Source: Flavitalea plasmicola | GTDB taxonomy: Bacteria > Bacteroidota > Bacteroidia > Chitinophagales > Chitinophagaceae | NCBI RefSeq assembly: GCF_030546645.1 | Contig: NZ_JAUOTO010000004.1 | Span: 558,001 to 622,000, forward strand | DNA: 64,000 nucleotides | Direction of reading: 5' to 3' | Shown: positions 25,748-62,988 of the stretch, in pieces | How positions within the stretch are numbered: position 1 is the stretch's first letter | How the letters are laid out: the number at the start of each line of letters is the position of its first letter | The notes under the pieces: generated by a model | Seen by the model: only the letters and a program-made list of their open reading frames with translations | The model's database searches: none | Told to the model about the DNA's origin: nothing | Position numbers and translations under genes: made by a program

Positions 25748-25791
25748 CAAAATTAGACCGGAAGCAGCGACGGAGCGATAACATATGTTAT
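25748..25791 (-). promoter_or_regulatory. Promoter and Crp-type operator of the MDR oxidoreductase gene
   Basis: On the minus strand, TAATTTTG (25748-25755) is a TAnnTTTG -7 box 20 bases before the ATG. Upstream lies the perfect 14-bp palindrome ATAACATATGTTAT (25778-25791). Its centre is 36.5 bp from the final G of the box, roughly position -40.5, the place for a class II activator. No -33 TTG exists, consistent with activator dependence. The Crp-type gene ends 5 bases beyond. Confidence 0.6.
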
Positions 25792-25796
25792 TAAGT

Positions 25797-26381
25797 TCAG
25801 AAATGTAATTTGCCTTTAGCAAGCTTACTTTTGATACGGCTCAGGTGCACTTTGCTGACTCCGAGGTAAGAGGCGATATAATGCTGGGGTACGCGCTGAA
25901 CGATATGCGGCCTTTCACTCAATAATTTCTTATAGCGTTCTTCAGGGGTATCGCGGATAAAGGAAACAAACTCATTCATATAATGGGTTTGGCGCCGGGC
26001 CGACATCTGAAGGATCATTTGCACGAAGCCGGGTTCATGGCTTAACTCATCCATCAATTGGGTGACGTATTTTTTAGGGAGTATATAGAGGATCGAGGGT
26101 TCGATCGTTTCGATCGTACACAAGCTGGGGGTATTGTTGATGAAGCTTTCGAACGAGGTAAGGCCTTCATTTTCGAAGAAGAACTGTATGGTCTTGTCGT
26201 CTCCATTATTATTGAAAAATGCGCGCACACAACCTTTCCCGATGAAAATGTACTGCTTGGATACTTTTCCTTCTTCCAGCAAAGTCTTTTTTGCCGGGAC
26301 TTCCATGCGCTGCTGGAATTTCAGATATTTATCCAGATAAGGATCTAATTGCGGGAATTTATTTCTAAAATGGAAAAGCAT
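25797..26381 (-). CDS. Crp/Fnr family transcriptional regulator
   Basis: A 194-residue cyclic-nucleotide-binding-fold regulator. The N-terminal sensor (about 25-120) reads LLEEGKVSKQYIFIGKGCVRAFF, then FFFENEGLTSFESFINN, without the Arg-Ser of true cAMP sites. The C-terminal winged helix has VPQHYIASYLGVSKVHLSRIKSKL (about 164-187), with Ser-Lys-Val-His-Leu-Ser-Arg as recognition helix. The length and short C-terminus are typical of Bacteroidota members that control a single adjoining operon. The MDR oxidoreductase gene follows 69 bases downstream with a palindromic operator, so this regulator probably activates it. Ligand unknown. Confidence 0.93.
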   Translation of the reverse strand: MLFHFRNKFPQLDPYLDKYLKFQQRMEVPAKKTLLEEGKVSKQYIFIGKGCVRAFFNNNGDDKTIQFFFENEGLTSFESFINNTPSLCTIETIEPSILYILPKKYVTQLMDELSHEPGFVQMILQMSARRQTHYMNEFVSFIRDTPEERYKKLLSERPHIVQRVPQHYIASYLGVSKVHLSRIKSKLAKGKLHF

Positions 26382-26428
26382 AAAGCATTAAAGTGACAGG
26401 CAAAGATAAGCCTGAATCCCGATGCTTT
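26382..26428 (-). promoter_or_regulatory. Promoter region of the Crp-type gene inside a nested inverted repeat
   Basis: The 45-base gap to the SulP gene holds a -7 box TATCTTTG (minus strand, 26401-26408). It sits in the loop of a nested repeat, with outer arms AAAGCAT/ATGCTTT at 26382-26388 and 26422-26428, and inner arms CAGGC/GCCTG at 26397-26401 and 26410-26414. The outer right arm includes the SulP stop codon, so the element may also end the SulP transcript. Confidence 0.4.
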
Positions 26429-28079
26429 ATCCTGCCTCCAATAGAATTACCTTGCTTCGCTGGATGGCATCCTCAAAAGTATCTGTTATATTGGCCTTTC
26501 CGATGGCAAATACCAGTCTCGCTTCCTTCAGCTCCTCCATCACCTGTTCGCTGTGGACTTCCGACAGGATCAGCTTAGTTCCCCCCTGCTTTGATTCAGT
26601 GTAGACATCTTTGATCGTTTTGAGGCCTGTGGCGTCAATGATAGGTACCTTTCTCATACGGATGATAAGCACTTTGGGCGGCCGTTCGATCAGTCTCATG
26701 GCATCTTTGAATTTATAGGCGGCGCCGAAAAACAAGGGACCATTTATTTCAAAGACTTCCACGTGTTTGGGCAGGGCGGGGTCTTCCATCTGATCGGCGC
26801 CTTCATTGTCTTCCATTTCTTTTTTCAGGCTGCTGACCTCGGTGAACCTGATCATATTTCGCAAGAAAAGGAAAGCTGCCAGGACCAGTCCCATTTCTAT
26901 GGCTACCGTAAGATCTATCAATACCGTCAGCAGGAAGGTCGCCAGGAGGATCGCTCTATCGCTTTTAGGCCCTTTCAGCACGGAAAGGAAGTGCCTCCAT
27001 TCGCTCATGTTATAAGCTACTACCACCAATATGCCGGCCAGCGTGGCCAGCGGGATCAATGCTGCCCATTTTCCGAAGAAAAGCAATATCAGCAGTAAAG
27101 TAATGGAATGGATCATTCCAGCGACAGGCGTACGGCCGCCATTTTTTACATTCGTAGCGGTACGGGCAATTGCACCGGTGGCCGGAATGCCGCCAAAGAC
27201 CGCGGAAAATATATTAGCGGTGCCCTGCGCGATCAGCTCCATATTCGACCTGTGATTGCCGCCGATCATGCCATCCGAAACTACCGCGGACAGCAATGAC
27301 TCAATGCCTCCCAGCAATGCAATGGTGAAGGCGGGCTGTATTAAATTCTTTATGGTCCTGACATCCAGGTGGGGGAAGACTGCCTTTGGCAAAGATGAGG
27401 AGATGCTCCCGAACTTGCTGCCGATGGTTTCCACCGGTAAGTGCAGGAGATGCATGATCGCAGTGGTAAAGAGAATGGCAATTAAAGAACCCGGCACTTT
27501 GCCGGTGATCTTGGGCCATAGGGAGATAATTGCTATAGTAGCGGACCCGATCAGGACGGCGTAGATATTTACCGACTGAAAATGGGCAATATAGCTTTCC
27601 CATTTATCTGTAAAATCGGCCGGGATAGCACCCATTTGCAAACCAAAGAAGTCCTTGACCTGGGAAGATAAAATGATAAGGGCAATGCCGCTGGTGAATC
27701 CAACGATCAGCGGGTAGGGAATAAATTTAATGACCGAGCCGAGCCGGGCAAAACCCATGACGATGAGTATGATCCCGGCTATAAAAGTCGCAATGATCAA
27801 GCCGTCTATGCCATGTACCTGAACAATGCCATAGACGATCACTATGAACGCACCCGTAGGGCCACCGATCTGGACCCGGCTGCCGCCCATCGCAGAAATG
27901 ATAAAACCCGCTATGACGGCTGTATATAAGCCTTTTTCGGGCGATACGCCTGAGGCTATGGCAAATGCGACAGCAAGGGGAAGGGCTACGAGGCCTACGA
28001 TAAGGCCAGACATCAGATCCTTGGTGAACTGCTGCCTATGGTAGGTCTTGAGGGTATCGAATAATTTAGGCCTTAGCAT
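26427..28079 (-). CDS. SulP family inorganic anion transporter with STAS domain
   Basis: A 550-residue SulP (SLC26-like) transporter. Membrane helices fill about 20-410, with LPLAVAFAIASGVSPEKGLYTAVIAG and GGIPATGAIARTATNVKNGGRTP typical of the family. A C-terminal STAS domain (about 440-545) contains the conserved DATGLKTIKDVY phosphorylation-type loop. It should carry sulfate, bicarbonate or another small anion across the inner membrane; sequence alone does not decide. Its start overlaps the DUF983 gene by 14 bases and it ends a four-gene operon. Confidence 0.95.
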   Translation of the reverse strand: MLRPKLFDTLKTYHRQQFTKDLMSGLIVGLVALPLAVAFAIASGVSPEKGLYTAVIAGFIISAMGGSRVQIGGPTGAFIVIVYGIVQVHGIDGLIIATFIAGIILIVMGFARLGSVIKFIPYPLIVGFTSGIALIILSSQVKDFFGLQMGAIPADFTDKWESYIAHFQSVNIYAVLIGSATIAIISLWPKITGKVPGSLIAILFTTAIMHLLHLPVETIGSKFGSISSSLPKAVFPHLDVRTIKNLIQPAFTIALLGGIESLLSAVVSDGMIGGNHRSNMELIAQGTANIFSAVFGGIPATGAIARTATNVKNGGRTPVAGMIHSITLLLILLFFGKWAALIPLATLAGILVVVAYNMSEWRHFLSVLKGPKSDRAILLATFLLTVLIDLTVAIEMGLVLAAFLFLRNMIRFTEVSSLKKEMEDNEGADQMEDPALPKHVEVFEINGPLFFGAAYKFKDAMRLIERPPKVLIIRMRKVPIIDATGLKTIKDVYTESKQGGTKLILSEVHSEQVMEELKEARLVFAIGKANITDTFEDAIQRSKVILLEAG

Positions 28080-28485
28080 GGTGTGAAATTTCCTCTCTCC
28101 AATGCTTGTCGTATTTTACAAAAAAGGACAGCCATATTGTTCTCGATATTCGCATGAAAAAAGGTTGCAGCAAGACTAATAAAACCCCATTGATACCGAG
28201 CCACCAGAAAATCCTATTATCTTCGGTAGACAGGCCGATCAAGACCCACCAGGCAACGAAGGTGGAGACGGAAAAAGCCACCGTCAGTGAATAGCTTACA
28301 TATGCGGTGCCATAATAGAACCCGGGCTCCAGTTCCATACGCTGGTGGCAGACCGGGCAATTGTCGTACATGCCGAATAAAGTTCTCAGATGATAGGGAT
28401 TCTTATTCTTAAACATGTCCCCCTCCCGGCAACGGGGGCACTTTTGATGGAGGATCGTCGATAATAAATTTGGCACTTTGCTCAT
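28066..28485 (-). CDS. DUF983 membrane protein
   Basis: A 139-residue protein with two CxxC pairs in its N-terminal third (KCPRCREGD and NCPVCHQRM), which form a zinc-ribbon-like knuckle, followed by two hydrophobic helices (YVSYSLTVAFSVSTFVAWW and WWLGINGVLLVLLQPFF). This is the DUF983 pattern of Bacteroidota and Alphaproteobacteria; the function is unknown. It lies between the methyltransferase (9-base gap) and the SulP gene (14-base overlap), and is probably translated together with the transporter. Confidence 0.9.
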   Translation of the reverse strand: MSKVPNLLSTILHQKCPRCREGDMFKNKNPYHLRTLFGMYDNCPVCHQRMELEPGFYYGTAYVSYSLTVAFSVSTFVAWWVLIGLSTEDNRIFWWLGINGVLLVLLQPFFMRISRTIWLSFFVKYDKHWREEISHHAKA

Positions 28486-28494
28486 ATATGCTGA

Positions 28495-29097
28495 TTATAC
28501 TTTTACCCAGAATTTCAGGAGACCATCCATGTCCGAATTAATAGCATGGAAATCGGGCGGCACCTCATTTTCGAGGCTGCAAAGCGTGCAAAGCCTGGTC
28601 CCTGCTGGTTTTTGCTGTAATTGTTTGAATAGATAGCGGTTGTAATAATTGAACAGCTCTCCGGAGTAGTCGATGCTGTCATCGATCTTGTCGGTACCGT
28701 CCAGGTTCTCGTAAAAAGCATTGTAGAAATAAAAATGATCGTATTTCTTCAAATCCAGCTGTGTAAAATTTCCATGTATAAAGGAAACATTTTCAAGATG
28801 CAGGCTGCTTTTGGCCTTTTCGGCATGTTCGATCAGGCTTTTCCTTTGCTCCACTCCAAAATACCAGGCTTTGGGCGTATGCCAGGCGGCGGCCAAACAG
28901 AATTTTCCTACACCGCTGCCAATATCCAGGATCTTCGTATTGCCGTCCCCGGCGAGGAAACGAGCGGCTTTCGCTGCAATATGCAAAGGCGTCCAATGAT
29001 ATTTTGCAAGCGCCTGGATGTGTATTGGATAAAGTGTATTAAATTCCACATCGGAATCAAACCAGTTCCCTGGACAGGATCTATTAATTACGGGCAT
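28495..29097 (-). CDS. Class I SAM-dependent methyltransferase
   Basis: A 200-residue protein with the Rossmann-type SAM-binding motif I ILDIGSGVGKFCLAAA (residues 56-71), an acidic motif II-like Glu in WYFGVEQRKSL, and FIHGNFTQLDL plus YDHFYFYNAFYEN as later motifs. The substrate is not apparent; small-protein or small-molecule methylation are both possible. A His/Trp-rich N-terminus (YHWTPLHIAAKAARFL) often marks substrate-binding helices in DOT1- or PrmA-like enzymes. It is the second gene of the operon, 16 bases after the small upstream gene. Confidence 0.85.
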   Translation of the reverse strand: MPVINRSCPGNWFDSDVEFNTLYPIHIQALAKYHWTPLHIAAKAARFLAGDGNTKILDIGSGVGKFCLAAAWHTPKAWYFGVEQRKSLIEHAEKAKSSLHLENVSFIHGNFTQLDLKKYDHFYFYNAFYENLDGTDKIDDSIDYSGELFNYYNRYLFKQLQQKPAGTRLCTLCSLENEVPPDFHAINSDMDGLLKFWVKV

Positions 29098-29113
29098 ATT
29101 GCATTCTGTTATA

Positions 29114-29389
29114 TTATTGGCGCTCCTCTTCGATGAATATTTTCAGGCCCTCATCAGGAAAATTGGCCCATCCCGTTAATATTGTACTATCGATGGGCTC
29201 GTATATTTCTTTTTTGTTGGGGTCGTCGGGAAGGCTTTTCACCGGGATGAGCGTGAAATAATCAAGCTCAATATAATCAACCCGTCCGTCCCTGGTATAG
29301 CCTTTAATAAGAACATACAGGAATCCCTTGTCCTTTAGATGCTGTAAGTTCTGTATCGTCAGCCTGACAGGGGATTTGGAATTTCCCAT
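29114..29389 (-). CDS. Hypothetical small protein, first gene of the SulP operon
   Basis: The ATG at 29389 (MGNSKSPVRLTIQN) is preferred; the frame extends to a TTG at 29425, but that region holds the -7 box. The 91-residue product is mostly beta/charged (GYTRDGRVDYIELDYFTLIPV) without motifs or membrane segments. It precedes the methyltransferase by 16 bases and is divergent from a Crp-type gene. Function unknown. Confidence 0.65.
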   Translation of the reverse strand: MGNSKSPVRLTIQNLQHLKDKGFLYVLIKGYTRDGRVDYIELDYFTLIPVKSLPDDPNKKEIYEPIDSTILTGWANFPDEGLKIFIEEERQ

Positions 29390-29422
29390 TAAGTTGTGTT
29401 TTAGAGGAGAAAAAAGCCTGGG

Positions 29423-29507
29423 CAAATTTACTTAAGGGGCTTCCGCCATCCGGTAATACTTATCACTAAAAAAAGTGAGTTATATCAATTTTTATATAAT
29501 AGATTTG
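29423..29507. promoter_or_regulatory. Divergent promoters sharing one palindrome
   Basis: Plus strand: -7 box TAGATTTG at 29500-29507, 7 bases before the Crp-type ATG (29514), so the mRNA would be nearly leaderless. Minus strand: TAAATTTG at 29423-29430, about 34 bases before ATG 29389. Between them TCACT-N6-AGTGA (29463-29478) is centred 36.5 bp from the plus-strand box end and 47.5 bp from the minus-strand one, that is, one helical turn (11 bp) further. Arms are only 5 bp. Confidence 0.5.
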
Positions 29508-29513
29508 TAATGT

Positions 29514-30221
29514 ATGAGCATAAAGGGCATTTTTCCGATCGATCAATGGGATTTCGAAAGTGAGTCGATACTTGCGGATCTTCCTTCGGGAGATTTGGAA
29601 TTGCTCATGGCCCGTAAATCGGAACAACTTTATAAAAAGGGGGAGATCATTTTCCGGGAGGGCGCATTTCCCGCGGGCATCTTTTATATCGTAAACGGGA
29701 AGGCAAAGAAATATAAAGTGGATGGGGAGGGCAGGGAGCAGATCATTTATGTTGCAAACACGGGGGAGCTATTGGGCTATCATGCTATTCTTTCCGGAGA
29801 CAATTATCCGGATTCTGCGGCCGTATTAGAGGAAAGCCTCATTACTTTTATTCCAAGAGAGGACTTTCTGGATGCCATCAAACAATCCGACGTATTGAAC
29901 CGAAGGCTTCTCAAGACCTTAAGCCATGAGTTTGCCGTCCTTGCAAATAGCCTTACCATGTTTGCGCAAAGGTCTGTCCGGGAGAGACTGGCCCTTCAAT
30001 TGATTGTGATCCGCGAAAAATACAAGGTCGATTTTGAGCCTGGCCAGCCTGTCGAGATAAATATGGGCCGCGACGACCTGGCCAGCCTGGTAGGCACGGC
30101 AAGGGAAAATGTCGTCCGGATGCTTTCGGAGTTCAAGGAAGAAGGTGTAGTCACGACGAAGGGCAGGAAGATAATCGTACTGGATGTAAAGAAGCTGATC
30201 AAGATCGCTAATTATAGATAG
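29514..30221 (+). CDS. Crp/Fnr family transcriptional regulator
   Basis: A 235-residue CRP/FNR-type regulator. The sensor domain (about 15-130) reads LYKKGEIIFREGAFPAGIFYIVNGKAKKYKV and GELLGYHAILSGDNYPDSAAVLE; no Cys cluster for an Fe-S centre is seen. The winged helix is INMGRDDLASLVGTARENVVRMLSEFKEEG (about 188-217, recognition helix in TARENVVRML). It is divergent from the small-protein / methyltransferase / DUF983 / SulP operon and shares a palindrome with it. It probably controls that operon and itself. It converges with the glycosidase gene, whose stop is 5 bases away. Confidence 0.95.
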   Translation: MSIKGIFPIDQWDFESESILADLPSGDLELLMARKSEQLYKKGEIIFREGAFPAGIFYIVNGKAKKYKVDGEGREQIIYVANTGELLGYHAILSGDNYPDSAAVLEESLITFIPREDFLDAIKQSDVLNRRLLKTLSHEFAVLANSLTMFAQRSVRERLALQLIVIREKYKVDFEPGQPVEINMGRDDLASLVGTARENVVRMLSEFKEEGVVTTKGRKIIVLDVKKLIKIANYR

Positions 30222-30226
30222 AACAA

Positions 30227-32725
30227 TTAATTATCTTGTTGAATAACAATAACGATCTTACCGGGCTTGCTGTGGATTGTATTTTGAAAAGTAAGGGAAC
30301 CCGCCGCATTGCTTCTGACTGTTTTAAATGCCTTATTGTTTATTGAGATGGCGTAGTTGGTATTGGGTTTAATGTCATTCAATTCGTAGATTAATTGAGT
30401 GGAATTGGAAGTTTGGGACCAGGATATTTTTTCCCGGCTCCAGGTTTTTATGTCGAGCGCCAGCCTATTGTTTGCAGGGGTCTTGATTTTCAGGGATGCA
30501 GAGACGCTGCTACGATCGAAATAGGAGAGGGTTGTGTCGGTGACATACATGCCGAAGTCGGTGGCTGAAGTGATTCTGGACTGGCCGCTGGACATCCTAT
30601 AGGCGTTTGTGTCCAGGCTAACGGTGAATTTCCGGCCCCTGAAATTATATTTTAATTCCGTGCCTGACAATTCGGGGGTAATATGAGGGTTCAGGTACAA
30701 CCTGTTGTAGCGAGGGTTGATGCCATAGATGGCCTGGTATAGTCCAACGACGGACAGGCTATTGCCGGAAAGGATATCGTCACCCCGGCCATCCTGCTTT
30801 TCACGGCCGTAACGCTGAAATGCCAAACCATCCTTCGCATATTGAGCCAGGACATTTTTTACATATTTTACTGCCAGGGCGGGCCTGTAAGCCGCATAGG
30901 CTTTGACGGCGATGCTGCCCCAGGATAGGAACAGATCTCCATTCTCATATTCAGGGAAGGGGAACTGGGAATCTTTCACCTCTCCCTTTTTGTAGCTATA
31001 CATGCAAACGGGCCAAAAGAAAAGGTGTTCCTTTTGCATCTGAGTCTCTATGTTGTCCAGGATTATCTTTATCCTGGGGCCATCATCGCAGATGCCATAG
31101 GCGATTGCCATGAAATTTACGGGGGTGACCATATTATTGCCATGGAGGGATCCGTCCTTATCTCTCCAGTGGATGTAGCATTTTTTTTCATCGTCCCAGA
31201 AGCCGCCTTCGGACACTGATTTGTTAAAGCTGGTTTTTAGTTTTTCAGCGAAATGGCTGTAGTAACTTTCTCTTTCTTTGTTGCCCAGCTGCTGTTCTAT
31301 AGCCGCCCATAAGACGAGCGCATGGTAGAGCTTGGCATTAACAAAGGCATTTTCATAGGATGCCCAGACTATATCCAGCCAGTCACTGCCTCTTTGCTGC
31401 TGCTGGCTGTCCGTCATCATCTCTACGAGGCCGTTGTTATTGGCGTCCCTTTTAAGGATCCAGTCCAGGGCTCTTTCGCATGATCGTTGGTGGGTTCTTA
31501 CCCAGTTAAGGTCGCCTGTCTGGTCGTATAGTTCAGCTACGTTAGAGACGAAGTCAGGGTTTGCATCCAATAAATAACCCCATTGGGCTTCATAAAATCC
31601 TTTATCCGTGAATTGGTCCGGCATTGCGTCCTCATTGCTATAGGCCCATCTTGGCCAGACCCTTCCATCGGGCTTTATGGCATTGTCCCGGTAGAAATCC
31701 AGGCACTGCTGATAACCTTTTAAATAACTGGCGTCATTTATAGCCAGGCCCATCTGGGCGATGTATTGTTCGTGCAGGCAGATGGGGCCATAGGGCGTAT
31801 GCCAGCTGTTGCCGCCAAAATGTTCCTTATCGATCACGCCGATCCTTGCGATCGTATTCAGTACGGCGCTTACCTGATCACCATTTATCCCCTTGAAGGC
31901 GCCCCGTCCAAACTGATCTTTAAAGCTGAACCAGGACAGGGTGATGCTTTGGCGGGTCTTGCCGGCATTCATTTTAAGGGGCGCCCAAACATAGGAGGTG
32001 TCCCGGACGAACCTTCTTCTTTGCGTGCCGGCATCAAAACGGGGGAGGAATTCTTTTGGAGAGATCCCAATGGAATAGGCAAGCCTGCCTTCCGGGGTAC
32101 GGCTGTAGTCCATCGCCACGTGACTGCCCGGTGCATCTACGGAGATGGTGAGGCCATTGTCCGTCGTGCTGTTCCAGAACCTGGATGAGCTGCTGTGTAC
32201 GCCGTAAGTATCCATTTTCTTAAAGAGGTAAAACCAGGCCAGACCCCCATAATCCTGGTAGGCGCCTTCCCAGGTTGACATATCGCGGAACATGAAAACC
32301 GGCAGGGCTACTTTCTCTGCGGCAACAGGGGCGGACAAGGTACGGTCTATGTCGAACGTGATATCTTTATCTGTTATGTGGAATGTCCAATTCTCATGGA
32401 TGGCGAGGTTTTTATCGCCGTAGGTGATCCCTGAAAGTCTAATGGTGTTTTTAGTTATGTTAAGCGTAGGTTCCGATGAAAGATGTAAGGTAGATAAGGT
32501 ACCCGTGGCGGTTGTAATGGATGAATACATTCCTGCAGGATCTTCGATGATCGACTGGCTATTGGCGATCAATTGTGTGATGGCTGCTCTCTTGCTATAG
32601 TCCAGCGTCAGCCTTAGCTTTGGATTGCCGAAGGTGATCTTTTTACCGTGGGGGTCATTATTTATTTGGGCAAAACAGGGACCAGCCAATACGAGGGAAT
32701 AAATGAAAATCAGGAATGTACGCAT
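30227..32725 (-). CDS. Secreted (alpha/alpha)6-toroid glycoside hydrolase (locus B)
   Basis: An 832-residue exported protein: signal peptide 1-19 (MRTFLIFIYSLVLAGPCFA), an N-terminal beta-sandwich (about 25-290), a helical toroid (about 300-680) and a C-terminal beta-sandwich. The toroid segment GSDWLDIVWASYENAFVNAKLYHAL and RGDDILSGNSLSVVGLYQAIYGINPRYNRLYLNP are like those of GH65/GH78/GH94-type clan enzymes, in which an acidic residue near the toroid loop is catalytic. I cannot assign a family number. It probably degrades the glycan taken up by SusC/SusD of this locus. It follows the PhyH-type gene by four bases and ends just before the convergent Crp-type gene. Confidence 0.75.
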   Translation of the reverse strand: MRTFLIFIYSLVLAGPCFAQINNDPHGKKITFGNPKLRLTLDYSKRAAITQLIANSQSIIEDPAGMYSSITTATGTLSTLHLSSEPTLNITKNTIRLSGITYGDKNLAIHENWTFHITDKDITFDIDRTLSAPVAAEKVALPVFMFRDMSTWEGAYQDYGGLAWFYLFKKMDTYGVHSSSSRFWNSTTDNGLTISVDAPGSHVAMDYSRTPEGRLAYSIGISPKEFLPRFDAGTQRRRFVRDTSYVWAPLKMNAGKTRQSITLSWFSFKDQFGRGAFKGINGDQVSAVLNTIARIGVIDKEHFGGNSWHTPYGPICLHEQYIAQMGLAINDASYLKGYQQCLDFYRDNAIKPDGRVWPRWAYSNEDAMPDQFTDKGFYEAQWGYLLDANPDFVSNVAELYDQTGDLNWVRTHQRSCERALDWILKRDANNNGLVEMMTDSQQQQRGSDWLDIVWASYENAFVNAKLYHALVLWAAIEQQLGNKERESYYSHFAEKLKTSFNKSVSEGGFWDDEKKCYIHWRDKDGSLHGNNMVTPVNFMAIAYGICDDGPRIKIILDNIETQMQKEHLFFWPVCMYSYKKGEVKDSQFPFPEYENGDLFLSWGSIAVKAYAAYRPALAVKYVKNVLAQYAKDGLAFQRYGREKQDGRGDDILSGNSLSVVGLYQAIYGINPRYNRLYLNPHITPELSGTELKYNFRGRKFTVSLDTNAYRMSSGQSRITSATDFGMYVTDTTLSYFDRSSVSASLKIKTPANNRLALDIKTWSREKISWSQTSNSTQLIYELNDIKPNTNYAISINNKAFKTVRSNAAGSLTFQNTIHSKPGKIVIVIQQDN

Positions 32726-32729
32726 ACTT

Positions 32730-33545: not shown

Positions 33546-33560
33546 GTTTATTGATTTTAA

Positions 33561-33585
33561 TAGCAGGGGGGAGGCCCCCCTGCTA
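33561..33585. promoter_or_regulatory. Perfect hairpin between susD and the dioxygenase gene
   Basis: TAGCAGGGGGG pairs perfectly with CCCCCCTGCTA (11 bp) around a 3-base loop. On the minus strand, which is transcribed here, it is followed by TTAAAAT rather than a T-run. It lies 15 bases past the SusD stop and 15 bases before the PhyH-type start, so it probably sets the ratio of susC/susD mRNA to the downstream enzymes. Confidence 0.8.
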
Positions 33586-33600
33586 ATTGTCTTCAAGGTA

Positions 33601-35145: not shown

Positions 35146-35155
35146 AATGTTCTTT

Positions 35156-38524: not shown

Positions 38525-38592
38525 AAATTGCAATTGATTTGGTTGTTAATAAAAGTGGTTAACTACAGTCTTTTAGGTCAACTAAATTTTCG

Positions 38593-38616: not shown

Positions 38617-38643
38617 TTTTTTCATAGACCTAATTTTTTCATA

Positions 38644-47779: not shown

Positions 47780-47782
47780 CAG

Positions 47783-49546: not shown

Positions 49547-49556
49547 TTCCGGGGTT

Positions 49557-53318: not shown

Positions 53319-53337
53319 AGCGGTTTGTTAAGGGATG

Positions 53338-54390: not shown

Positions 54391-54432
54391 CTACCTAAAA
54401 GAGAAGGGAGGGGCTTTCCGATACTCACTGGT

Positions 54433-54993: not shown

Positions 54994-55027
54994 TGGGCCA
55001 TAAAATTAGGCAAAGGAGATATGGATT

Positions 55028-55080
55028 GCTCCTTTATAGGAGCCTTAACCCAAAGATAATATCCCCATTTGATGCGGCAA
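55028..55080 (-). promoter_or_regulatory. Bacteroidota-type promoter of the locus C sigma gene with 5' stem-loop
   Basis: On the minus strand TTG (55078-55080), a 19-base spacer and TATCTTTG (55051-55058) match the -33/-7 consensus. The predicted start is near 55047, giving a leader of about 54 bases. GCTCCT and AGGAGC (55028-55043) form a 6-bp stem-loop right behind it. Confidence 0.65.
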
Positions 55081-55091
55081 CGGCCGCGGGC

Positions 55092-56579
55092 TCAGAACTG
55101 GAAATAAATAAATGAACTGCTGCTTTCCTGGCTGAGGATCAGCAATATCAACATTGACGACCATAGCAGGCCGGTGAACCACCAGGGAAGACGGTTAGCG
55201 ACGTCCAGTATCCGGGTGTTCCGCATTGACCAATGGGCGATGAGCATAGCCGAAATGATCACCGCTATCCTGATCATGGCCATGGTGGTGAGCAGGGGGG
55301 TACCTCCGTTAGTCATCCCGAACATGGATCCCAGCATATTGCCGGCGCCTGTAAAGCTCGGGCTGCGGAAAAAGACCCAGGTAATATTTACAAGGAAGAA
55401 TGTCAACAGCGCATAGATCCACCCGGTGTTATTGCCGGGCAGTCCGACGCCAGCCATCGCCGGCCTGGTCCTGCCTTGCAGGGGGCTTTCTTCCACGCCA
55501 ATGGCAGAAACGCGGCTTTTTTCTTTTCTGTCGGTGAAGAATTTTTCCACCCACAGGTAAAGGCCGTGCAGCCCGCCCCAGGCAACGAAGGTCCAGTTCG
55601 CGCCATGCCATAATCCCCCCAGCAGCATGGTCACCATGAGGTTGATATAGGTCCTGAACGTGCCTTTCCGGTTGCCTCCCAACGGTATATATAAATAATC
55701 GCGCAGCCAGGCGGACAATGTAATATGCCACCTTCGCCAGAAATCGGAAAAGCCGATGGCCGCATAAGGGAAGAGGAAATTCTGTGGCAGCACGAAGCCC
55801 AGGCACAGCGCCACCCCGATGGCGCAGGTGGAATAGCCTGCAAAGTCGAAGAAGATCTGGCCGCTGAATGCCAGGACACCCATCCAGGCATCCAGGGGTA
55901 ACAGCTTACCCGGTGCGTTAAAAATGGTATCCGCGGAAGCTGACAGCATGCTGTCAGCCAGCACCACCTTCATGAACAGACCGAGCGACAGCAGAAATAA
56001 GCCATTCATCAACTGCTGCCTGGTGGCCTTCCGTGGGTTTTCAAACTGGGGCACCAGTTGAGGAGGGCGAACAATCGGGCCAGCCACCAGGTGGGGAAAG
56101 AAGGTCACGAACAGGGAGAAGTCCAGGAGCGACCGCACGGGTTCGCTCTTCTTTTTATACATGTCGATGGTATAGCAAAGGGTAGTAAAAGTGTAAAAAG
56201 ATATGCCTGCGGGCAAAATGATATTTGGTTTTGCCGGATGATAATCGATGCCAAGCGCATTGATGACCGTGACAAAATTTTCCAGGAGGAAGCCTCCATA
56301 TTTGAAGAAGCAGAGCATCCCGATGTTGCCGATCAGGCTGATGACCAGGAGGGCCCGCCGCTTGTGTATGTTGGTCTGCCTGTATAGCGCACTGCCTACA
56401 AAAAAATCCACTATGGTGGACAGCCAGAGCAGGAGGATAAAAGGAGGGTTCCATGCCGCGTAGAAAATATAGCTGGCCAGCAGCAAATTTATCTTTTTTA
56501 CTTTCCAGGGAAAGGGGAGGCTGTGCAGGACCAGCACAATGGCAAAGAAGACGATGAATGTATAGGAGTTGAATACCAT
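55092..56579 (-). CDS. MBOAT family O-acyltransferase (AlgI/DltB-like)
   Basis: A 495-residue polytopic membrane protein with about ten helices and the MBOAT motifs WRRWHITLSAWLRDYLYIPLGGNRKG (281-306) and GGLWHGANWTF (321-331), where His325 is the catalytic residue. It should transfer acyl, usually acetyl, from a cytosolic donor to a periplasmic or surface carbohydrate. Its partner is the SGNH-like gene 18 bases upstream on the same strand. The polymer it modifies is not encoded here. Confidence 0.95.
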   Translation of the reverse strand: MVFNSYTFIVFFAIVLVLHSLPFPWKVKKINLLLASYIFYAAWNPPFILLLWLSTIVDFFVGSALYRQTNIHKRRALLVISLIGNIGMLCFFKYGGFLLENFVTVINALGIDYHPAKPNIILPAGISFYTFTTLCYTIDMYKKKSEPVRSLLDFSLFVTFFPHLVAGPIVRPPQLVPQFENPRKATRQQLMNGLFLLSLGLFMKVVLADSMLSASADTIFNAPGKLLPLDAWMGVLAFSGQIFFDFAGYSTCAIGVALCLGFVLPQNFLFPYAAIGFSDFWRRWHITLSAWLRDYLYIPLGGNRKGTFRTYINLMVTMLLGGLWHGANWTFVAWGGLHGLYLWVEKFFTDRKEKSRVSAIGVEESPLQGRTRPAMAGVGLPGNNTGWIYALLTFFLVNITWVFFRSPSFTGAGNMLGSMFGMTNGGTPLLTTMAMIRIAVIISAMLIAHWSMRNTRILDVANRLPWWFTGLLWSSMLILLILSQESSSSFIYFQF

Positions 56580-56597
56580 GATCGGGTTAGTTTTGCG

Positions 56598-57620
56598 TTA
56601 CCGGGTGAACGAGGCAGGAAGTTCGGTGATCAATGCTCTTGTATATTTGATGGCGTCCTGCGGGCTCAGGTGGGACCATTCCGGACAAATAAAATGACTG
56701 GTAGCGTCATAGTCGGTGTAGTAGATACCCTGACAATGCGTGGCTGCCAGCAATGGGTCCCAGCATCTTGTACGGGGGAACACATGCTCTTCGACACCCC
56801 GCATGACGCCGCTGGAAGGAGTCCTGATGAAGACAACCTCTCCGCCGCGGGCACGGATCTTATCGACCGCATCTTTTACCACTGCGAGGATCGGGGGCAC
56901 CGGATCCTGTTTGGGGGGCGGCGCCTTTTTTCCCAGGTCCATGACAAATAGCCAAACGTCCTGAACGCGATGTTGCAGGAGCGTGTCTGCCACGAACCTG
57001 GGCGTCATTTTGCTCTGCCTGTTAAAATCACTGCAGTTGAAATCTATGGGAAAGCTGGGAAAGACATATACACCGGGCCGGTCGGGGATACCGAACCTAT
57101 CCAGGCCTGCATTCAGGGAGAACTTGTCCCTGTCGAGGAAGACGAGCATGGACTCCAGGGCGTGATCCAGCACGAAGCTGGCTTTTTCCGCCGGCGTTCT
57201 TTTCTTATACCATGCAGTGTAGGATTCCGGTTTCTGAAGGTTATAGCGATCGCCGGAGTAGAACAATCCTTCCGTTACATCGACGACCAGCCTGCCACGA
57301 AAATCCGGATCATTGCCCAGGTCAGTCAGCACGGGAATCGGTGAGCTGCCCTCTATCGCCAACTGAACGGCATGTCTGCCCGTCTCTTTTTGCCAGGTGT
57401 CGATGTCGAGGTCGAACTTGATCCGCGAAGAGCCGATGAATACAGTGGTCTTATCGGATAGCTCATAGACCATGGCCCTTTTATCCGCCCAGAGCTCTTT
57501 GCCATTGTCATAAGATACGCGTACTCCCTTGCTGCGAAGGTAGATCTCCCAGCCTCCGATGACCAATACGACGACCAGGAGGGCGAATACAGCAGCCTTC
57601 GAAAGATTGTTTGCAGGCAT
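56598..57620 (-). CDS. SGNH-hydrolase-like membrane-anchored protein (acyl transfer partner)
   Basis: A 340-residue protein with an N-terminal membrane anchor (AAVFALLVVVLVIGGWEIYL, about 9-28) and a periplasmic SGNH-type domain: the nucleophile region TVFIGSSRIKFDLD (Ser64) and a C-terminal EWSHLSPQDA with His317 (Glu314 where Asp usually sits). As in AlgJ/AlgX or DltD-like proteins it may complete the acyl transfer begun by the MBOAT enzyme. It lies upstream of the MBOAT gene in the same operon. The 186-base gap beyond it holds no clear gene, and I saw no consensus promoter. Confidence 0.8.
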   Translation of the reverse strand: MPANNLSKAAVFALLVVVLVIGGWEIYLRSKGVRVSYDNGKELWADKRAMVYELSDKTTVFIGSSRIKFDLDIDTWQKETGRHAVQLAIEGSSPIPVLTDLGNDPDFRGRLVVDVTEGLFYSGDRYNLQKPESYTAWYKKRTPAEKASFVLDHALESMLVFLDRDKFSLNAGLDRFGIPDRPGVYVFPSFPIDFNCSDFNRQSKMTPRFVADTLLQHRVQDVWLFVMDLGKKAPPPKQDPVPPILAVVKDAVDKIRARGGEVVFIRTPSSGVMRGVEEHVFPRTRCWDPLLAATHCQGIYYTDYDATSHFICPEWSHLSPQDAIKYTRALITELPASFTR

Positions 57621-57806
57621 TCTTTAGATTTAGAGGTGAATGAAGCTTATTACCCAACGTGTGGCTTTGTGGTCTCCGGAAGCGTTATAAAAGGAAAGGT
57701 GTAGAGGGACAGGAAGATGAGGTCAAAATAAGATGATATGAACCAAGGTATGCAATTTTTGCAGCAAATCAATCCACGGAACTGGGTATTTTCTCTGGCA
57801 GGGGCC

Positions 57807-58739
57807 TTACAGCCATTTCTTTTTTTTAAACCAGATATAAATGGCGATGGTAACAATGGCCATCAGGAGGTAGGCGAAGGGATAGCCCAGCCGCCATTTT
57901 AATTCGGGCATGTGCTCAAAGTTCATCCCGTAGATGCCAACAATGAAAGTGAGGGGTAGGAAGAAAACCGAGAATATGGTGAGCACCCTCATGGTCTCAT
58001 TGGTCTTTTGAGCGGAGATGTTGAAATAAATATTCAGCAGATGGTTAGTGTTTTCCGACAGGGAGTCGAAAATGTTCTGGTTTTTTACGTAGAGGTCCCT
58101 GGTATCCCTGGTATAGGCATTAGATTCTTCCGGAGGGTCTACCTGTTCGATGATGTCGTGGGTGAGGAGTAATATTCTTCTGACGACATCCACTTTGCGT
58201 TTAAGGAAGTAAAGGCCTTTCAGGATCGGCTTTTTTTTGTTTTTAAGAAAAATATTCTCTTCATAATACTCGATCGATCTCGTCAGCTTCTTTCCGGGGG
58301 CGTCGAAAGATTGCAGTGCGGCCACAACGATGGCGTTGAAAACATGCGCAGGTTTTTTCCATGTTTCTTCATGGATGAATTCCCGGGTGATCTTGTCCAA
58401 TGCGGGCCATTGCCTTTTATGTATGGTGATGATGAAATCCTTTCCGATGAATAGCGCCAGCTTATTTGTCAGCTCTTGAACGGTATCGGCCTCGACCTCA
58501 TTATCCGGGGCATAAAATCGCAGGATAGCGAATGTATAAGTTTTGAGGTGTTCATATTTTGGCAGGTGGTCTGTTTGCAGTGCGTCCTGCACCGATTGTT
58601 CCAGCAGGCTGTATTGGTTGGCGATATCCTGCAGCTCCGACTGATTGGGATCGAGAATATCTATCCAATTAAAGGGGTATTCGGTGCCTGGCGTGAGGTG
58701 GTAGACCATTTGGGCTTGTTTAATGGTCAATTTACCCAC
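57807..58739 (-). CDS. corA: CorA family Mg2+/Co2+ transporter
   Basis: A 310-residue CorA protein: a large N-terminal cytosolic domain and two C-terminal helices with the signature IYGMNFEHMPELKW (GMN motif) between them, ending in IAIYIWFKKKKWL. It forms a pentameric channel for magnesium uptake in the inner membrane. The start codon is GTG at 58739 (MGKLTIKQ); the in-frame ATG at 58709 (MVYHL) is an alternative. It is divergent from the amidase gene with only 19 bases between, so each promoter must overlap the neighbour's 5' end. Confidence 0.95.
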   Translation of the reverse strand: MGKLTIKQAQMVYHLTPGTEYPFNWIDILDPNQSELQDIANQYSLLEQSVQDALQTDHLPKYEHLKTYTFAILRFYAPDNEVEADTVQELTNKLALFIGKDFIITIHKRQWPALDKITREFIHEETWKKPAHVFNAIVVAALQSFDAPGKKLTRSIEYYEENIFLKNKKKPILKGLYFLKRKVDVVRRILLLTHDIIEQVDPPEESNAYTRDTRDLYVKNQNIFDSLSENTNHLLNIYFNISAQKTNETMRVLTIFSVFFLPLTFIVGIYGMNFEHMPELKWRLGYPFAYLLMAIVTIAIYIWFKKKKWL

Positions 58740-58758
58740 TTTTTCATAAATTTATTGG

Positions 58759-59724
58759 ATGAATAAGATAACCCTTATAGCTCTACTGACGGGAATTATC
58801 ACTTTTACTTCATTCAATGCCCGTCCCCATCATAAAGCTGTCCTGCGCACGATCATTATTGATCCTGGCCATGGGGGTTTCGACTATGGCTGCAGCGGCC
58901 TGTTCTCCAGGGAAAAGGACGTAGCGCTATCGATTTCCATGAAGCTGGGGGCGGCCATACAGGAAGCATTTCCCGAAATCAAGATCGTGTATACCAGGAC
59001 CACGGATATAATGCCGGGGAATGCATCCAGCATCCATGCCGGGCTTCGTGTCCGGGCAGACGTTGCCAATAAGGCGAAAGGCGATCTTTTTATCTGCATT
59101 CATGCCAATTCCAATGGTCATTCAGCCGGGCAGTATGAAGTAAGGCACCTGGTGGGCCACAAGCTGGTCAAAAAGGGGAAAAGGAAGGTAAGGCAGCCTG
59201 TGTATGAATATGAGACGAGGAAGAACATGACGGTGGGAACCACGAGCTATATATGGAAGGCGATGTGGGGACAATATAAGGGCACGCAGATCAATGAAAA
59301 GGACCTGGGGGGAGAAGATATGGGGGACAGCACGGCCACCCCGATGGACATGAGCTCTCCGGAGGCCAGGATACGGGCTCAGCTATACGAGAAAAGGTAT
59401 TTTGCCAACAGCGCATTTTTTGGCCAGCTGGTACAGGATGAGTTCGTGAAAGCGGGGCGCAAAACCGAGGGTGTGCAGCAGCGGGAGGTAGGCATCTGGG
59501 TACTGGAAGCCACCGGCATGCCCAGCGTGCTGATCGAGACGGGTTATCTCACCAATGAGGAAGAGGAGAAATATCTGAATAGCGAGGAAGGGCAGCATGA
59601 GGTAGTACAGAATATTCTGGATGCTTTTATAAAGTATAAGGATTCCGTGGAAGGCAATCGTAAGAGCAATGCGGGGATTGATAGCACAACCAGTGGCTCC
59701 GGCGAGCCGAAGAGTCAGCGGTAA
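58759..59724 (+). CDS. N-acetylmuramoyl-L-alanine amidase
   Basis: A 321-residue Amidase_3 enzyme with a signal peptide (about 1-22). Zinc ligands are His38 (IDPGHGGFD), Glu52 (REKDVAL) and His115 (CIHANSN), with catalytic Glu260 in VLIETGYLTN. It cleaves the amide between N-acetylmuramic acid and L-Ala of peptidoglycan in the periplasm, for cell separation or remodelling. A long insertion between the second and third motifs (about 120-240, basic then acidic) is characteristic of Bacteroidota amidases and may gate the active site. The C-terminus is Ser/Gly-rich. It converges with the VWA gene, 6 bases away. Confidence 0.96.
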   Translation: MNKITLIALLTGIITFTSFNARPHHKAVLRTIIIDPGHGGFDYGCSGLFSREKDVALSISMKLGAAIQEAFPEIKIVYTRTTDIMPGNASSIHAGLRVRADVANKAKGDLFICIHANSNGHSAGQYEVRHLVGHKLVKKGKRKVRQPVYEYETRKNMTVGTTSYIWKAMWGQYKGTQINEKDLGGEDMGDSTATPMDMSSPEARIRAQLYEKRYFANSAFFGQLVQDEFVKAGRKTEGVQQREVGIWVLEATGMPSVLIETGYLTNEEEEKYLNSEEGQHEVVQNILDAFIKYKDSVEGNRKSNAGIDSTTSGSGEPKSQR

Positions 59725-59730
59725 GCGGAA

Positions 59731-61470
59731 TCACGGTGCATGTTCATAGATCTTCCGGGCTTTTACCAGCAGGGAGATGTAATCCCTGTCGATGAAGTTG
59801 TTAGCAGAAAAGATCTTTTTTGTCATTTTCTCCATATCACTCCAGCTGAGCTGAGCGGCATAATCCGGGCCTTTCAGCTTCATTCCAAAGAGGGCGATGC
59901 AGACTGCTTTTTTGAGGCTTGCCGATGCCGTCTCGAAAGGCGCCGACTTGTTGGGGCAATCGAAGCTCATTGTTCTTATTTTGTTTTGTCCGGGCAGGCA
60001 GTAGCGGATCTGTATGTTTGCAAGGTTCTCATTACCTGTGGAGTCTTTTTTAGGGATAATTTCGAAGATGGCCATCTGGGCATTGGCGGAAGCTACGCTG
60101 CCCCCGACAAATCTGAGCGTGGTGTCTTCCAGGGCGCTGTGTTTGTTTTCGAAGCCAAGGAGGTGATATTCCTGCACCAGGGAGGTATCGAAGGCGACGG
60201 TGAAACAGACATTCCCGGCAACTTCGGACAGGCCTTTTGCAAGATCGTCCAATAACAAACGTTCGCCTTGCTGTGCGTCTTCTATACGGCCGAAGGTTCC
60301 ATGGCCTGCCTGGGCCAGCATGGGGAGCTCTGAAGCTTCTTCTTTGTTCAGCCCCACGCCTAAGCAGGAGAGGTGTATACTGTCGGAGGAGAAGCGGCTG
60401 GCGAGGTCTGCCAGGTAGTTCCTGGCCGCCGGAGTGGAGGAGATATCGCCATCCGTGATCAATATGACCCTGTTGTTACCGCCGGGGATATACTGTCCTG
60501 CCGCTATTTTGTAAGCCAGCATGATACCTGCTTCGCCGGGCGAAGGACCATCAGCGGACAATTGTTCGACGGTCCTGACGAGCTGATCTTTTCGGGAACC
60601 GGGTACGCCTACGAGCGCTCGCCCTCTTCCTCCATATTCGATGATGGAAACGGTGTCGATGTCCCGGAGATTTTTTATCAGCAGGTGAAGGCTGGATTTA
60701 ACGAGGGGCAGCTTGTTCGGCATATCCATGGAGCCCGTGACGTCGATGAGGAAGACCAGGCTGGCAGGCCTGCGGATGGAGGTTTTTTTAGTGCAGATGT
60801 TCAGGCACAGTAGTCTGTGCCTGTCATTCCATGGGCAGGAGAGTAAATTGGAGGCGCAATGAAAGAGCTCTTCATTTTCCGGGTCTTCGTAATAAAAGTT
60901 GAGGTAATTCAACATTTCTTCCACCTTGACGGCTTCTGCCGGAACGTGCATGCCCATATCCAGGAACCTTTTGACATTGGAGTATGCAATGCCATTGCTG
61001 TTGCATGCAAATGATATGCTGGACCCATTGATCACCGAAGCCAGGCTCTTTTTTTTCGTCGTCAGCGACAACGGCAGTTCTTTTAACGTAACCCGAAGAA
61101 ATCCGTTGGTGTTGACAGCGGTGGAATAAGATTCGTATCCATCCAGATAGAATGTCACCGAATCCTCTGTTTTTCGGGTGATGATCTCGAAGCTACCCGA
61201 AGCGCTTGTTTTGTAGATCTCCCCGGTGGATCGTATGATAATGCCGACGTGCTGCAGATTGTCCCCGTGTGCGCCTTTCACTTCACCTGTAAAATAGTAT
61301 TGGGCTGACAGGGGCATGAAAAAGATGTTAAGCAATAGTATGGAACCTGCTGTTTTCAGGTTATTTGATTTTATACTGAACTGATAAGATTCCGCCCGGC
61401 TAAATATACAAAAAAACGGCCATAGAAGGGCCAGAGCGGGTTTGCGCATTCTGGGGATTTTTTTCCTCAT
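59731..61470 (-). CDS. VWA domain protein of YfbK type with carboxypeptidase-regulatory domain
   Basis: The start at ATG 61470 is preferred over 61608 because it avoids the 61550 gene, though 61449 is also possible; the hydrophobic stretch ILLLNIFFMPLSAQ shows an export signal. The 579-residue product has a carboxypeptidase-regulatory-like domain (YYFTGEVKGAHGDNLQHVGI), a YfbK-type VWA N-terminal region (VEEMLNYLNFYYEDPENEE, SCPWNDRHRLL), a VWA domain with MIDAS-like DVTGSMDMP, ILITDGDIS, and a YfbK-type tail. Asp-x-Thr-x-Ser replaces the usual Asp-x-Ser-x-Ser. Surface or periplasmic interaction with other proteins is the likely role. Confidence 0.88.
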   Translation of the reverse strand: MRKKIPRMRKPALALLWPFFCIFSRAESYQFSIKSNNLKTAGSILLLNIFFMPLSAQYYFTGEVKGAHGDNLQHVGIIIRSTGEIYKTSASGSFEIITRKTEDSVTFYLDGYESYSTAVNTNGFLRVTLKELPLSLTTKKKSLASVINGSSISFACNSNGIAYSNVKRFLDMGMHVPAEAVKVEEMLNYLNFYYEDPENEELFHCASNLLSCPWNDRHRLLCLNICTKKTSIRRPASLVFLIDVTGSMDMPNKLPLVKSSLHLLIKNLRDIDTVSIIEYGGRGRALVGVPGSRKDQLVRTVEQLSADGPSPGEAGIMLAYKIAAGQYIPGGNNRVILITDGDISSTPAARNYLADLASRFSSDSIHLSCLGVGLNKEEASELPMLAQAGHGTFGRIEDAQQGERLLLDDLAKGLSEVAGNVCFTVAFDTSLVQEYHLLGFENKHSALEDTTLRFVGGSVASANAQMAIFEIIPKKDSTGNENLANIQIRYCLPGQNKIRTMSFDCPNKSAPFETASASLKKAVCIALFGMKLKGPDYAAQLSWSDMEKMTKKIFSANNFIDRDYISLLVKARKIYEHAP

Positions 61471-61549
61471 TGGAGACGGGCCGGTGTCCGTCAGAAAGAT
61501 CGATGAAAGATTGGCATACTTTTTTGGATAGAATTCTCTAAAACAGCGT

Positions 61550-61813
61550 ATGAGATCTTTTTCGATCAAACTGCAATATGACAAGTCGATATTTGAAGTG
61601 GATGTCAACGTTATACGCCAGAGCGATCATATTCAGTACACTATTATCCCCAAGGACCTGGAGCTGGAGTATCTGTTCGGGACGCAGGTGATCCATGAAT
61701 TGCCTTCGAAAGGGTTTAAGGCTTGTGGGGACCAGGACAAGCGATATTTCGATGCCGTCACCGATGCGCTGATCAATTCCGATCAACGGATCCTGGCGTT
61801 GGCGAGAGCCTGA
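61550..61813 (+). CDS. Hypothetical 87-residue protein
   Basis: A short gene ending just before a strong terminator. The product (MRSFSIKLQYDKSIFEVDV, then HIQYTIIPKDLELEYLFG) is rich in beta strands and has no membrane or signal segment. The reading frame, the terminator 25 bases after the stop and its lack of long overlap with the VWA gene (start 61470) support it. Function is unknown. Confidence 0.7.
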   Translation: MRSFSIKLQYDKSIFEVDVNVIRQSDHIQYTIIPKDLELEYLFGTQVIHELPSKGFKACGDQDKRYFDAVTDALINSDQRILALARA

Positions 61814-61838
61814 TAATATTCCTATTCTATATATACGC

Positions 61839-61868
61839 ATGGAGGACGGTATTGATGCCGTCCTCCAT
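61839..61868. terminator. Bidirectional intrinsic terminator
   Basis: ATGGAGGACGG pairs perfectly with CCGTCCTCCAT (11 bp) around an 8-base loop, followed by TTT on the plus strand. It lies between the convergent small gene (ends 61813) and the adenosine-deaminase-like gene (ends 61870). Confidence 0.88.
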
Positions 61869-61869
61869 T

Positions 61870-62940
61870 TTAGTCTTTATAGCCCTGCAAGAGCCTTTCC
61901 CGAATCTCTTTTTTTGTTTTATCGTCTGTGAAAGCATGGTCGATGGCTTCGAGGTTGCAAGTGAGCAACTGTTGCTTTGACCAGTGAAACTGAGCCATCA
62001 CCAGCTGATACTCCCTGTTCAGGGTCGTATTGGAGATCGTGTATGCGTCTGTGTTAATGCTGAGCGATACGCCAGCTTTGTAGAGGCGGTGGATAGGATG
62101 GTCTCCCAGGCTGTTGTAAATATTGGTCTGCAGATTGCTGCTGGGGCATATTTCCAGGTGAATATGATGTGCGACGAGGTAGCTGACGAGGGCAGTGTCT
62201 TCTATGCTTCTTACACCATGGCCGATGCGGCTGGGGTGAAAGTTATCCAGCGTTTCCCGGACACTGGCCGGGCCTTTTGCTTCCCCGGCATGGGCAGTGC
62301 AGGGGATCTTCCTTTCCCTGGCATAGGCGAATGCCGCAATATGATTGTCGATGGGATAACCTGCTTCGTCGGCGGCTATGTCAAACCCGACGATATGGGT
62401 ATGGCGAAATTTTTCAACCAGCTGTACCGTCGTCATGCTTTGTTCCGCGGAGTAATGCCGTAAAGTGCAGAGGATCACTCCCACCTGTATGCCTGTATTC
62501 CGGATGCCTTCCGCAACGGCATCGTTCACGGCCGTCACCACTTCTTCGGGGGTGAGACCTTTCTGCAGGTGCTGGAGAGGGGCAAAACGAATTTCGGCAT
62601 ACAGAACATGATCTTTTTGCAGTTGCCGGAACAGGTCGAGGGTCACCCATCTCAGGGACTGTTTTGTCTGCATGAGGCTGATGCTTCGTATAGCGCGGGT
62701 GATGTAGTCACGAAGGTCGGTACAACGGGCCGGTGCGATAAAGTCCCGTTGGTAATCTTCCGGGGAAATGGAGGGGTCGATTTTTTTGACCACGGCATAG
62801 CTCAGTGAACAATCCAGGTGGAGATGCAGCTGTACTTTGGGCCAGGCGGCGGGGGGCGCGGACTGACATGGCGCGGGCCGGGTCATGAGCAGGGACAGGG
62901 AGAGCGCGATCAGCTGTCGAATGGGAATGTGTCGATTCAT
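61870..62940 (-). CDS. Exported adenosine deaminase-like amidohydrolase
   Basis: Start chosen at ATG 62940 (MNRHIPIRQLIALSLSLLM), giving a signal peptide of about 26 residues and a 356-residue protein. Zinc ligands of the ADA fold are His39-x-His41 (QLHLHLDCS), His217 with Glu220 (AHAGEA), His241 (IGHGVRS) and catalytic Asp298 (INTDAYTIS). In mammalian and E. coli ADA the following residue is a second Asp that binds the purine; here it is Ala299. The enzyme should act outside the cytoplasm on a purine nucleoside or a related compound. It is divergent from the Crp-type gene and shares its control region. Confidence 0.88.
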   Translation of the reverse strand: MNRHIPIRQLIALSLSLLMTRPAPCQSAPPAAWPKVQLHLHLDCSLSYAVVKKIDPSISPEDYQRDFIAPARCTDLRDYITRAIRSISLMQTKQSLRWVTLDLFRQLQKDHVLYAEIRFAPLQHLQKGLTPEEVVTAVNDAVAEGIRNTGIQVGVILCTLRHYSAEQSMTTVQLVEKFRHTHIVGFDIAADEAGYPIDNHIAAFAYARERKIPCTAHAGEAKGPASVRETLDNFHPSRIGHGVRSIEDTALVSYLVAHHIHLEICPSSNLQTNIYNSLGDHPIHRLYKAGVSLSINTDAYTISNTTLNREYQLVMAQFHWSKQQLLTCNLEAIDHAFTDDKTKKEIRERLLQGYKD

Positions 62941-62945
62941 ACATA

Positions 62946-62988
62946 CAAAATTACCTGCCATTACCGGTGATTTTTAGGACATTTGTCC
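62946..62988. promoter_or_regulatory. Promoter of the deaminase gene with Crp-type palindrome
   Basis: On the minus strand TAATTTTG (62946-62953) is a -7 box just 5 bases before the ATG, so the mRNA would be leaderless or nearly so. The inverted repeat GGACA-TT-TGTCC (62977-62988) is centred 36.5 bp from its last G. On the plus strand it overlaps a GACATTTG box for the Crp-type gene, so binding could repress that gene. Confidence 0.6.

Follow-up and report, generated by a model that had tools for sequence, protein, structure and literature searches.

A fixed 36.5-bp spacing between palindromes and the −7 box suggests class II-like activation beside Crp-family genes in Flavitalea plasmicola and other Bacteroidota

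At class II promoters of Escherichia coli, the activator site is centered at −41.5, leaving 30.5 bp to the A at −11 in the −10 element, and the ETISR recognition helix of FNR goes with the half-site TTGAT. Within the Bacteroidota, BT4338 (Cur) of Bacteroides thetaiotaomicron is a member of the Crp family. Of 23 FNR-activated E. coli promoters whose starts are known, 19 have their site at −41.5 ± 4 (PMC3688515). For BT4338, extracts of the literature describe an activator whose 22-bp site, upstream of fusA2, is close to a palindromic consensus; a figure legend marks a putative −7 sequence, and the extracts give no distance to it (PMC6989115). Promoters of the Bacteroidota primary sigma factor (sigma ABfr) have TAnnTTTG at −7 and TTTG near −33 (PMC7366714). 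Here, we describe three loci in a 64,000-nucleotide window of Flavitalea plasmicola (Chitinophagaceae, Bacteroidota; contig NZ_JAUOTO010000004.1, positions 558,001 to 622,000) at which a palindrome next to a Crp/Fnr-type gene lies at one distance, 36.5 bp, from a TAnnTTTG box. A search of the open-access literature returned neither a statement of this spacing nor TAnnTTTG together with Crp, although we do not claim that either is absent from print.

The palindromes of sites 1, 2, and 3 are centered at 25784.5, 29470.5, and 62982.5, and the last G of the accompanying TAnnTTTG is at 25748 (−), 29507 (+), and 62946 (−), respectively. The original prediction, which fixed the 36.5-bp distance prior to all of the statistics given below, was exact in its coordinates and in this distance at all three loci. 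It spoke of three Crp-type promoters; only the box of site 2 faces its crp gene, and the boxes of sites 1 and 3 face neighboring genes. We propose that each Crp/Fnr-family protein, as a dimer, would bind the palindrome adjoining its own gene and would recruit RNA polymerase to the promoter of the neighboring gene in a class II-like manner. With the palindrome centered 36.5 bp upstream of the last G, the dimer would cover the place of the −33 element and touch polymerase from a fixed position. Different regulators would read different half-sites (GATAACA, GGGACA, TTGAC, CTTGAT, CTTGG, CTTGTC, and GTGA) through different residues of the recognition helix, with the register kept. With the last G at −4, the position suggested by the published centering of the Bacteroidota box at −7 (PMC7366714), the predicted site center is −40.5, as the original prediction stated; with the last G at −5, it would be −41.5. 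Judged from sequence, the sites have one mark of a class II promoter, a palindrome of dimer size kept in one register over the −33/−35 region. We infer binding by the neighboring Crp protein, activation, the transcription starts, and, at site 2, autorepression, and we consider it highly probable that CRP/FNR activators of class II type dock at these sites, in a single register, on promoters of the Bacteroidota primary sigma factor. The idea that several regulators with different motifs share one class II-like architecture is supported by conservation among orthologs, a scan of the same genome, spacing distributions in the family and phylum, and linkage to crp genes.

Thirty loci were fetched for each Crp protein, and 12 (site 1), 22 (site 2, one of them cut by a contig end), and 9 (site 3) were examined as orthologs. 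Whether the palindromes persist in orthologous gaps had been named as a check, and those of sites 1 and 3 do, with their spacing within 1 bp. The site 1 palindrome, ATAACATATGTTAT (25778..25791, −), is the proposed operator of the Crp protein encoded at 25797-26381; it reads mostly TTGATAACAnATGTTATC in relatives and is retained in 9 of 12 orthologous loci (L073-L084, own included). Its box, TAATTTTG (25748..25755, −), belongs to an oxidoreductase gene, and a box is present in 8 of the 9 palindrome-bearing loci, at 36.5 bp in five (two of these boxes having one mismatch) and at 37.5 bp in three. At site 3, the palindrome GGACATTTGTCC (62977..62988, −) is the proposed operator of the Crp protein encoded at 63000-63581, and the box, again TAATTTTG (62946..62953, −), belongs to an adenosine deaminase gene. 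Retention of GGACAnnTGTCC was found in 8 of 9 orthologous loci (L043-L051, own included), all 8 with a box, at 35.5 bp in five and at 36.5 bp in three; the box of L050 is the one-mismatch CAAATTTG. Mean pairwise identity was 0.89 for the palindrome and 0.44 for the next 16 bp at site 1 and 0.90 and 0.45, respectively, at site 3, the palindrome figures being inflated because loci were selected via the motif (at site 3, via an exact 12-mer) and the figures for the next 16 bp being free of this bias. The length of the spacer at sites 1 and 3 is nearly conserved, and its letters are not.

At site 2, the TCACT-N6-AGTGA (29463..29478) that had been taken for the palindrome consists of the facing inner halves of two tandem TGA-N6-TCA-type sites, the outer being TAATACTTATCA (29454..29465, center 29459.5) and the inner TGAGTTATATCA (29476..29487, center 29481.5). 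The tandem sites rule it out as an operator, and its 36.5-bp distance to the crp box, TAGATTTG (29500..29507, +), is the midpoint of 47.5 and 25.5. The two sites lie 22 bp apart in 18 of 21 orthologous upstream regions (at a score of at least 10/12); other spacings from 16 to 29 occurred in at most 4 of 21, and 100 shuffles gave a mean of 0.08 and a maximum of 2. The outer site is centered 36.5 bp from the last G of the opposite-strand box TAAATTTG (29423..29430, −), and the spacing rule therefore holds at site 2 for the divergent gene, whose operon the outer site would serve as a class II site. Among the 21 orthologs, this distance is exactly 36.5 bp in 15 and 37.5 bp in 1, a one-mismatch box stands at 36.5 bp in 4, and 1 has no box; between 20 and 75 bp, no exact box was found at any distance other than 36.5 or 37.5 bp. 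The proteins behind the divergent promoter appear to differ among genomes with the register kept, as judged by eye from the N termini of the longest open reading frames. The inner site lies ~30 bp ahead of the presumed crp start, a position that suggests autorepression of this Fnr-like gene by blocking of its own promoter; its distance to the crp box, where one was found, is 20.5 to 27.5 bp, apart from one degenerate promoter at 39.5 bp.

We then asked how often palindromes take this distance elsewhere. The genome (8.73 Mb) has 44 matches to the cyclic-nucleotide-binding domain and 12 to HTH_Crp_2 (PF13545), so many of its regulators have either a divergent helix-turn-helix or none recognizable to Pfam. 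The scan covered these 44 matches and one weaker Crp locus, with palindromes sought at half-base distances of 18 to 69.5 bp from TAnnTTTG; excluding loci in the window, the statistic rests on 41 Crp loci, 104 boxes, and 104 distances tested. Among N6-type palindromes, 5 of 21 fell at 36.5 bp and at most 1 at any other distance; under a looser palindrome score, 36.5 bp held 5 of 68, followed by a distance with 4. Control DNA from the same genome (400 kb, 176 boxes) gave 0 (N6 type) and 1 (looser) at 36.5 bp, and the expectation that the spacing exceeds chance therefore stood. New sites in this genome include L121, L122, L136, and L143. Across the family (98 genomes, 97 genera), CTTG-N8-CAAG followed by TAnnTTTG at 21.5 to 51.5 bp gave 118 matches, 21 of them at 36.5 bp and no more than 6 at any other distance, and among the first 150 matches listed for TTGA-N6-TCAA in 40 genomes, 22 were at 36.5 bp, 11 at 35.5 bp, and no more than 8 at others; the two match lists overlap. 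For the phylum, a single motif was used, the FNR consensus TTGAT-N4-ATCAA, which gave 45 matches over 21 distances in 118 genomes, with 9 at 36.5 bp, 7 at 37.5 bp, and then 5 at 46.5 bp. CTTG-N6-CAAG, tried as a family motif and rejected for its wrong inner spacing, gave 23 matches in 33 genomes, with none at 36.5 bp and 1 at 37.5 bp; the peak is thus not a property of any CTTG/CAAG pair. The noted lack of a −33 TTG is only weakly informative: at 44 control promoter-like boxes, there were 16 occurrences of a TTG that starts 22 to 30 bp before the last G, compared with 3 occurrences at 39 sites having the 36.5-bp spacing (counts summed over offsets).

A different reading of these positions is that the palindromes are repressor operators of the neighboring Crp proteins, their constant distance being set by steric exclusion around −33. 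CRP-family proteins can repress, the inner site of site 2, 25.5 bp from its box, fits such a role, and at all 8 loci with the site 3 palindrome, the ATG of crp follows it after 0 to 61 nt. However, a steric block does not need single-base-pair precision, and both the sharp peak at 36.5 bp and the agreement with the class II register of E. coli point to contact with polymerase; we regard repression as an unlikely explanation of the shared spacing and retain class II-like activation.

Linkage to crp genes was scored with a profile of this genome's Crp proteins over loci L191-L315, counting a crp gene within 1.5 kb. The 36.5-bp sites in this sample were fetched deliberately (three own-genome ones at Crp loci being outside the set), and the others were taken as the searches returned them. 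For CTTG-type sites, a crp gene was found at 16 of 19 with the 36.5-bp spacing, at the single one with 35.5 or 37.5 bp, and at 1 of 24 at other distances; the corresponding counts for TTGA-type sites were 16 of 33 at 36.5 bp and 2 of 47 at other distances (Fisher test of 36.5 bp versus other distances, 6e-8 and 4e-6, respectively). Fifty-five sites at 35.5 to 37.5 bp lie within 400 bp of a crp gene, 39 of them on the crp strand. In 33 of these 39, the palindrome lies downstream of the end of the crp gene (the remaining six are the five by-products at site 2 and L070), and in 28 of the 33, the crp frame ends no more than 30 bp from the palindrome edge. Recognition helix and half-site also vary together: over 38 linked sites, the Mantel correlation between helix distance and half-site distance was 0.66, and the partial correlation, allowing for the rest of the protein, was 0.45, neither being reached in 2,000 permutations. 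Rows with gapped helices, the Fnr-like set, L070, and divergent sites other than the adenosine deaminase set were excluded, and orthologs inflate the correlation. The pairs are (P/Q)ETLSR mostly with TTGA (QETLSR with TTGAC), (A/P)TTFSK with CTTGG, TDTSLSR with CTTGTC, VHLSR with TAACA (ATAACA), RSLNR with GGACA (GGGACA), and ARENVVR with GTGA in the tandem sites. Binding of the palindromes by other regulators, with an indirect linkage to crp, would suit the TTGA-type sites that lack a crp gene, which could be targets of a global FNR-like protein. Against it stand the proximity of crp to CTTG-type sites, the crp frames that end near the palindrome edge, and the variation of the helix with the motif, and we consider it very improbable compared with recognition by the adjacent Crp protein.

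Several observations weigh against the class II-like reading. The peak was weak in 50 additional Crp loci from relatives that belong to none of the three ortholog sets, with 5 palindromes at 36.5 bp and 4 at each of five other distances, and for the N6 type, 3 at 36.5 bp tied with 61.5 bp. In the Crp family of site 1, the motif is missing from 3 of 12 loci, and in that of site 3, from 1 of 9. One base pair of play is tolerated, since 5 of 8 site 3 loci have 35.5 bp and 3 of 8 site 1 loci have 37.5 bp. The 21 CTTG-N8-CAAG sites are not independent events because they include orthologs, particularly in the TCTTGG group. No crp gene lies within 1.5 kb of 17 of the 33 TTGA-type sites at 36.5 bp, and just 1 of 11 TTGA-type sites at 35.5 or 37.5 bp has one. 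The BT4338 consensus was found in 13 of 395 phylum genomes, and none of the 15 loci, whose promoter status was not tested, had an exact box at 36.5 bp; an earlier query of 86 genomes of one family, guessed to be the right one, returned no matches. Coincidence of short palindromes with a short box found by eye would accommodate the by-product first described at site 2 and the weak peak in the 50 further loci, but it is scarcely credible given out-of-sample peaks at the prestated distance in the genome, family, and phylum and the absence of 36.5 bp among the 23 CTTG-N6-CAAG matches.

All three regulators have PF00027 above the cutoff, while PF13545 was matched only in the protein encoded at 29514-30221; the helix regions of the site 1 and site 3 proteins align with those of other Crp loci. 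The site 1 regulator (25797..26381, −; recognition helix SKVHLSR; Pfam cNMP_binding, 6.1e-9) matches PDB 3dn7 (6.2e-17, residues 20 to 186). Its gene is upstream of, and on the same strand as, its proposed target, a zinc-type/quinone oxidoreductase of the MDR family (24756..25727, −; Pfam PF00107, 1.1e-13), with the crp stop codon 5 bp short of the palindrome and the oxidoreductase ATG (25727, −) 20 nt past the box. The site 3 regulator (63000..63581, +; helix SVRSLNR; Pfam cNMP_binding, 3.5e-18 for the longer open reading frame 62967-63581) matches CRP chains in PDB (best, 1.1e-10); an AlphaFold model of it was poor (mean pLDDT, 55) and was not used. Divergent from this gene is its proposed target, an adenosine deaminase with a hydrophobic N terminus (61870..62940, −; Pfam A_deaminase, 3.9e-81 for the longer open reading frame 61870-62961), which has an in-frame ATG at 62940 (−), 5 nt past the box. 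In 7 of 8 loci (62940-62953 and L044-L051), this ATG begins 3 to 5 nt past the box's last G, so the mRNA would be nearly leaderless; in B. thetaiotaomicron, 5′ untranslated regions shorter than 10 nt are reported to make up ~3.7% (PMC7366714).

The site 2 regulator (29514..30221, +; 235 residues; helix TARENVVR; Pfam cNMP_binding, 2.7e-19, and HTH_Crp_2, 1.1e-15) contains no cysteine and hence no N-terminal cysteine cluster of the FNR kind, and we therefore class it as CRP-like rather than FNR proper. Its ATG is 4 to 9 nt past the box in 17 orthologs with an exact or near box (29507-29514 and L013-L032), and this transcript, too, would be nearly leaderless. The first gene of the divergent operon encodes 91 residues (29114..29389, −), the start being a chosen in-frame ATG 33 nt past the box; a Pfam/NCBIfam search of the longer open reading frame 29114-29425 returned no match. 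The rest of the operon, also on the minus strand, encodes a methyltransferase (28495-29097), a DUF983-like protein (28066-28485, below the Pfam cutoff), and a SulP transporter (26427-28079). With no change of strand, the operon runs on into crp of site 1 and the proposed target there (24756-29389, −), so a cascade could lead from the Fnr-like regulator to the Crp protein of site 1. Beyond the window, a TCTTGG-N6-CCAAGA operator stands beside crp genes in several genera (L143, L193, L199, and L285-L288), and both of the downstream genes tested (L143 and L193) encode DinB-superfamily proteins. The TTGA-type 36.5-bp sites without a crp gene (L218, L225, L250, L256, L259, L261, L266, and others) may form the regulon of a global FNR-like protein.

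Taken further, it seems reasonably likely that Bacteroidota maintain a large repertoire of one-target Crp switches in which operator and recognition helix changed in concert and the register of docking on polymerase stayed fixed to ~1 bp, at the same distance from the conserved A as in E. coli class II promoters. If so, the geometry of activator and polymerase would be older and more conserved than promoter sequence, and the operators and targets of uncharacterized Crp proteins could be read directly from sequence. For the many Crp-family genes of Bacteroidota that lack an assignment, a fixed ruler from operator to −7 box would reveal, from sequence alone, where the operator lies, which gene is the target, and in which direction control runs. 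The helix-motif pairs open a DNA recognition code for the Crp family to testing. Agreement with the class II distance of E. coli would also make it possible to ask directly if contacts made by the activator have been conserved across two primary sigma factors that differ greatly.

Compared with known systems, the sites described here resemble that of BT4338/Cur in belonging to the same phylum and in combining a proposed activator, a palindromic site, and a putative −7 sequence, while the BT4338 consensus, TATGTTnTAnAACATA, is different. They share the −7 box of sigma ABfr promoters, with a palindrome covering the −33 region. The pairing of TTGA-type half-sites with (P/Q)ETLSR follows that of TTGAT with ETISR in FNR. 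Unlike E. coli, with its one global regulator, this genome has many paralogs, each with a proposed private operator beside its own gene, and the core element is TAnnTTTG rather than TATAAT. As at E. coli class II promoters activated by CRP or FNR, a dimer-sized palindrome stands at one fixed distance upstream of a core element; its center is 30.5 bp from the A of TAnnTTTG, just as the E. coli site is 30.5 bp from the conserved A of its own core element, and the geometry of polymerase and activator therefore appears unchanged from that of E. coli, though the promoter consensus differs.

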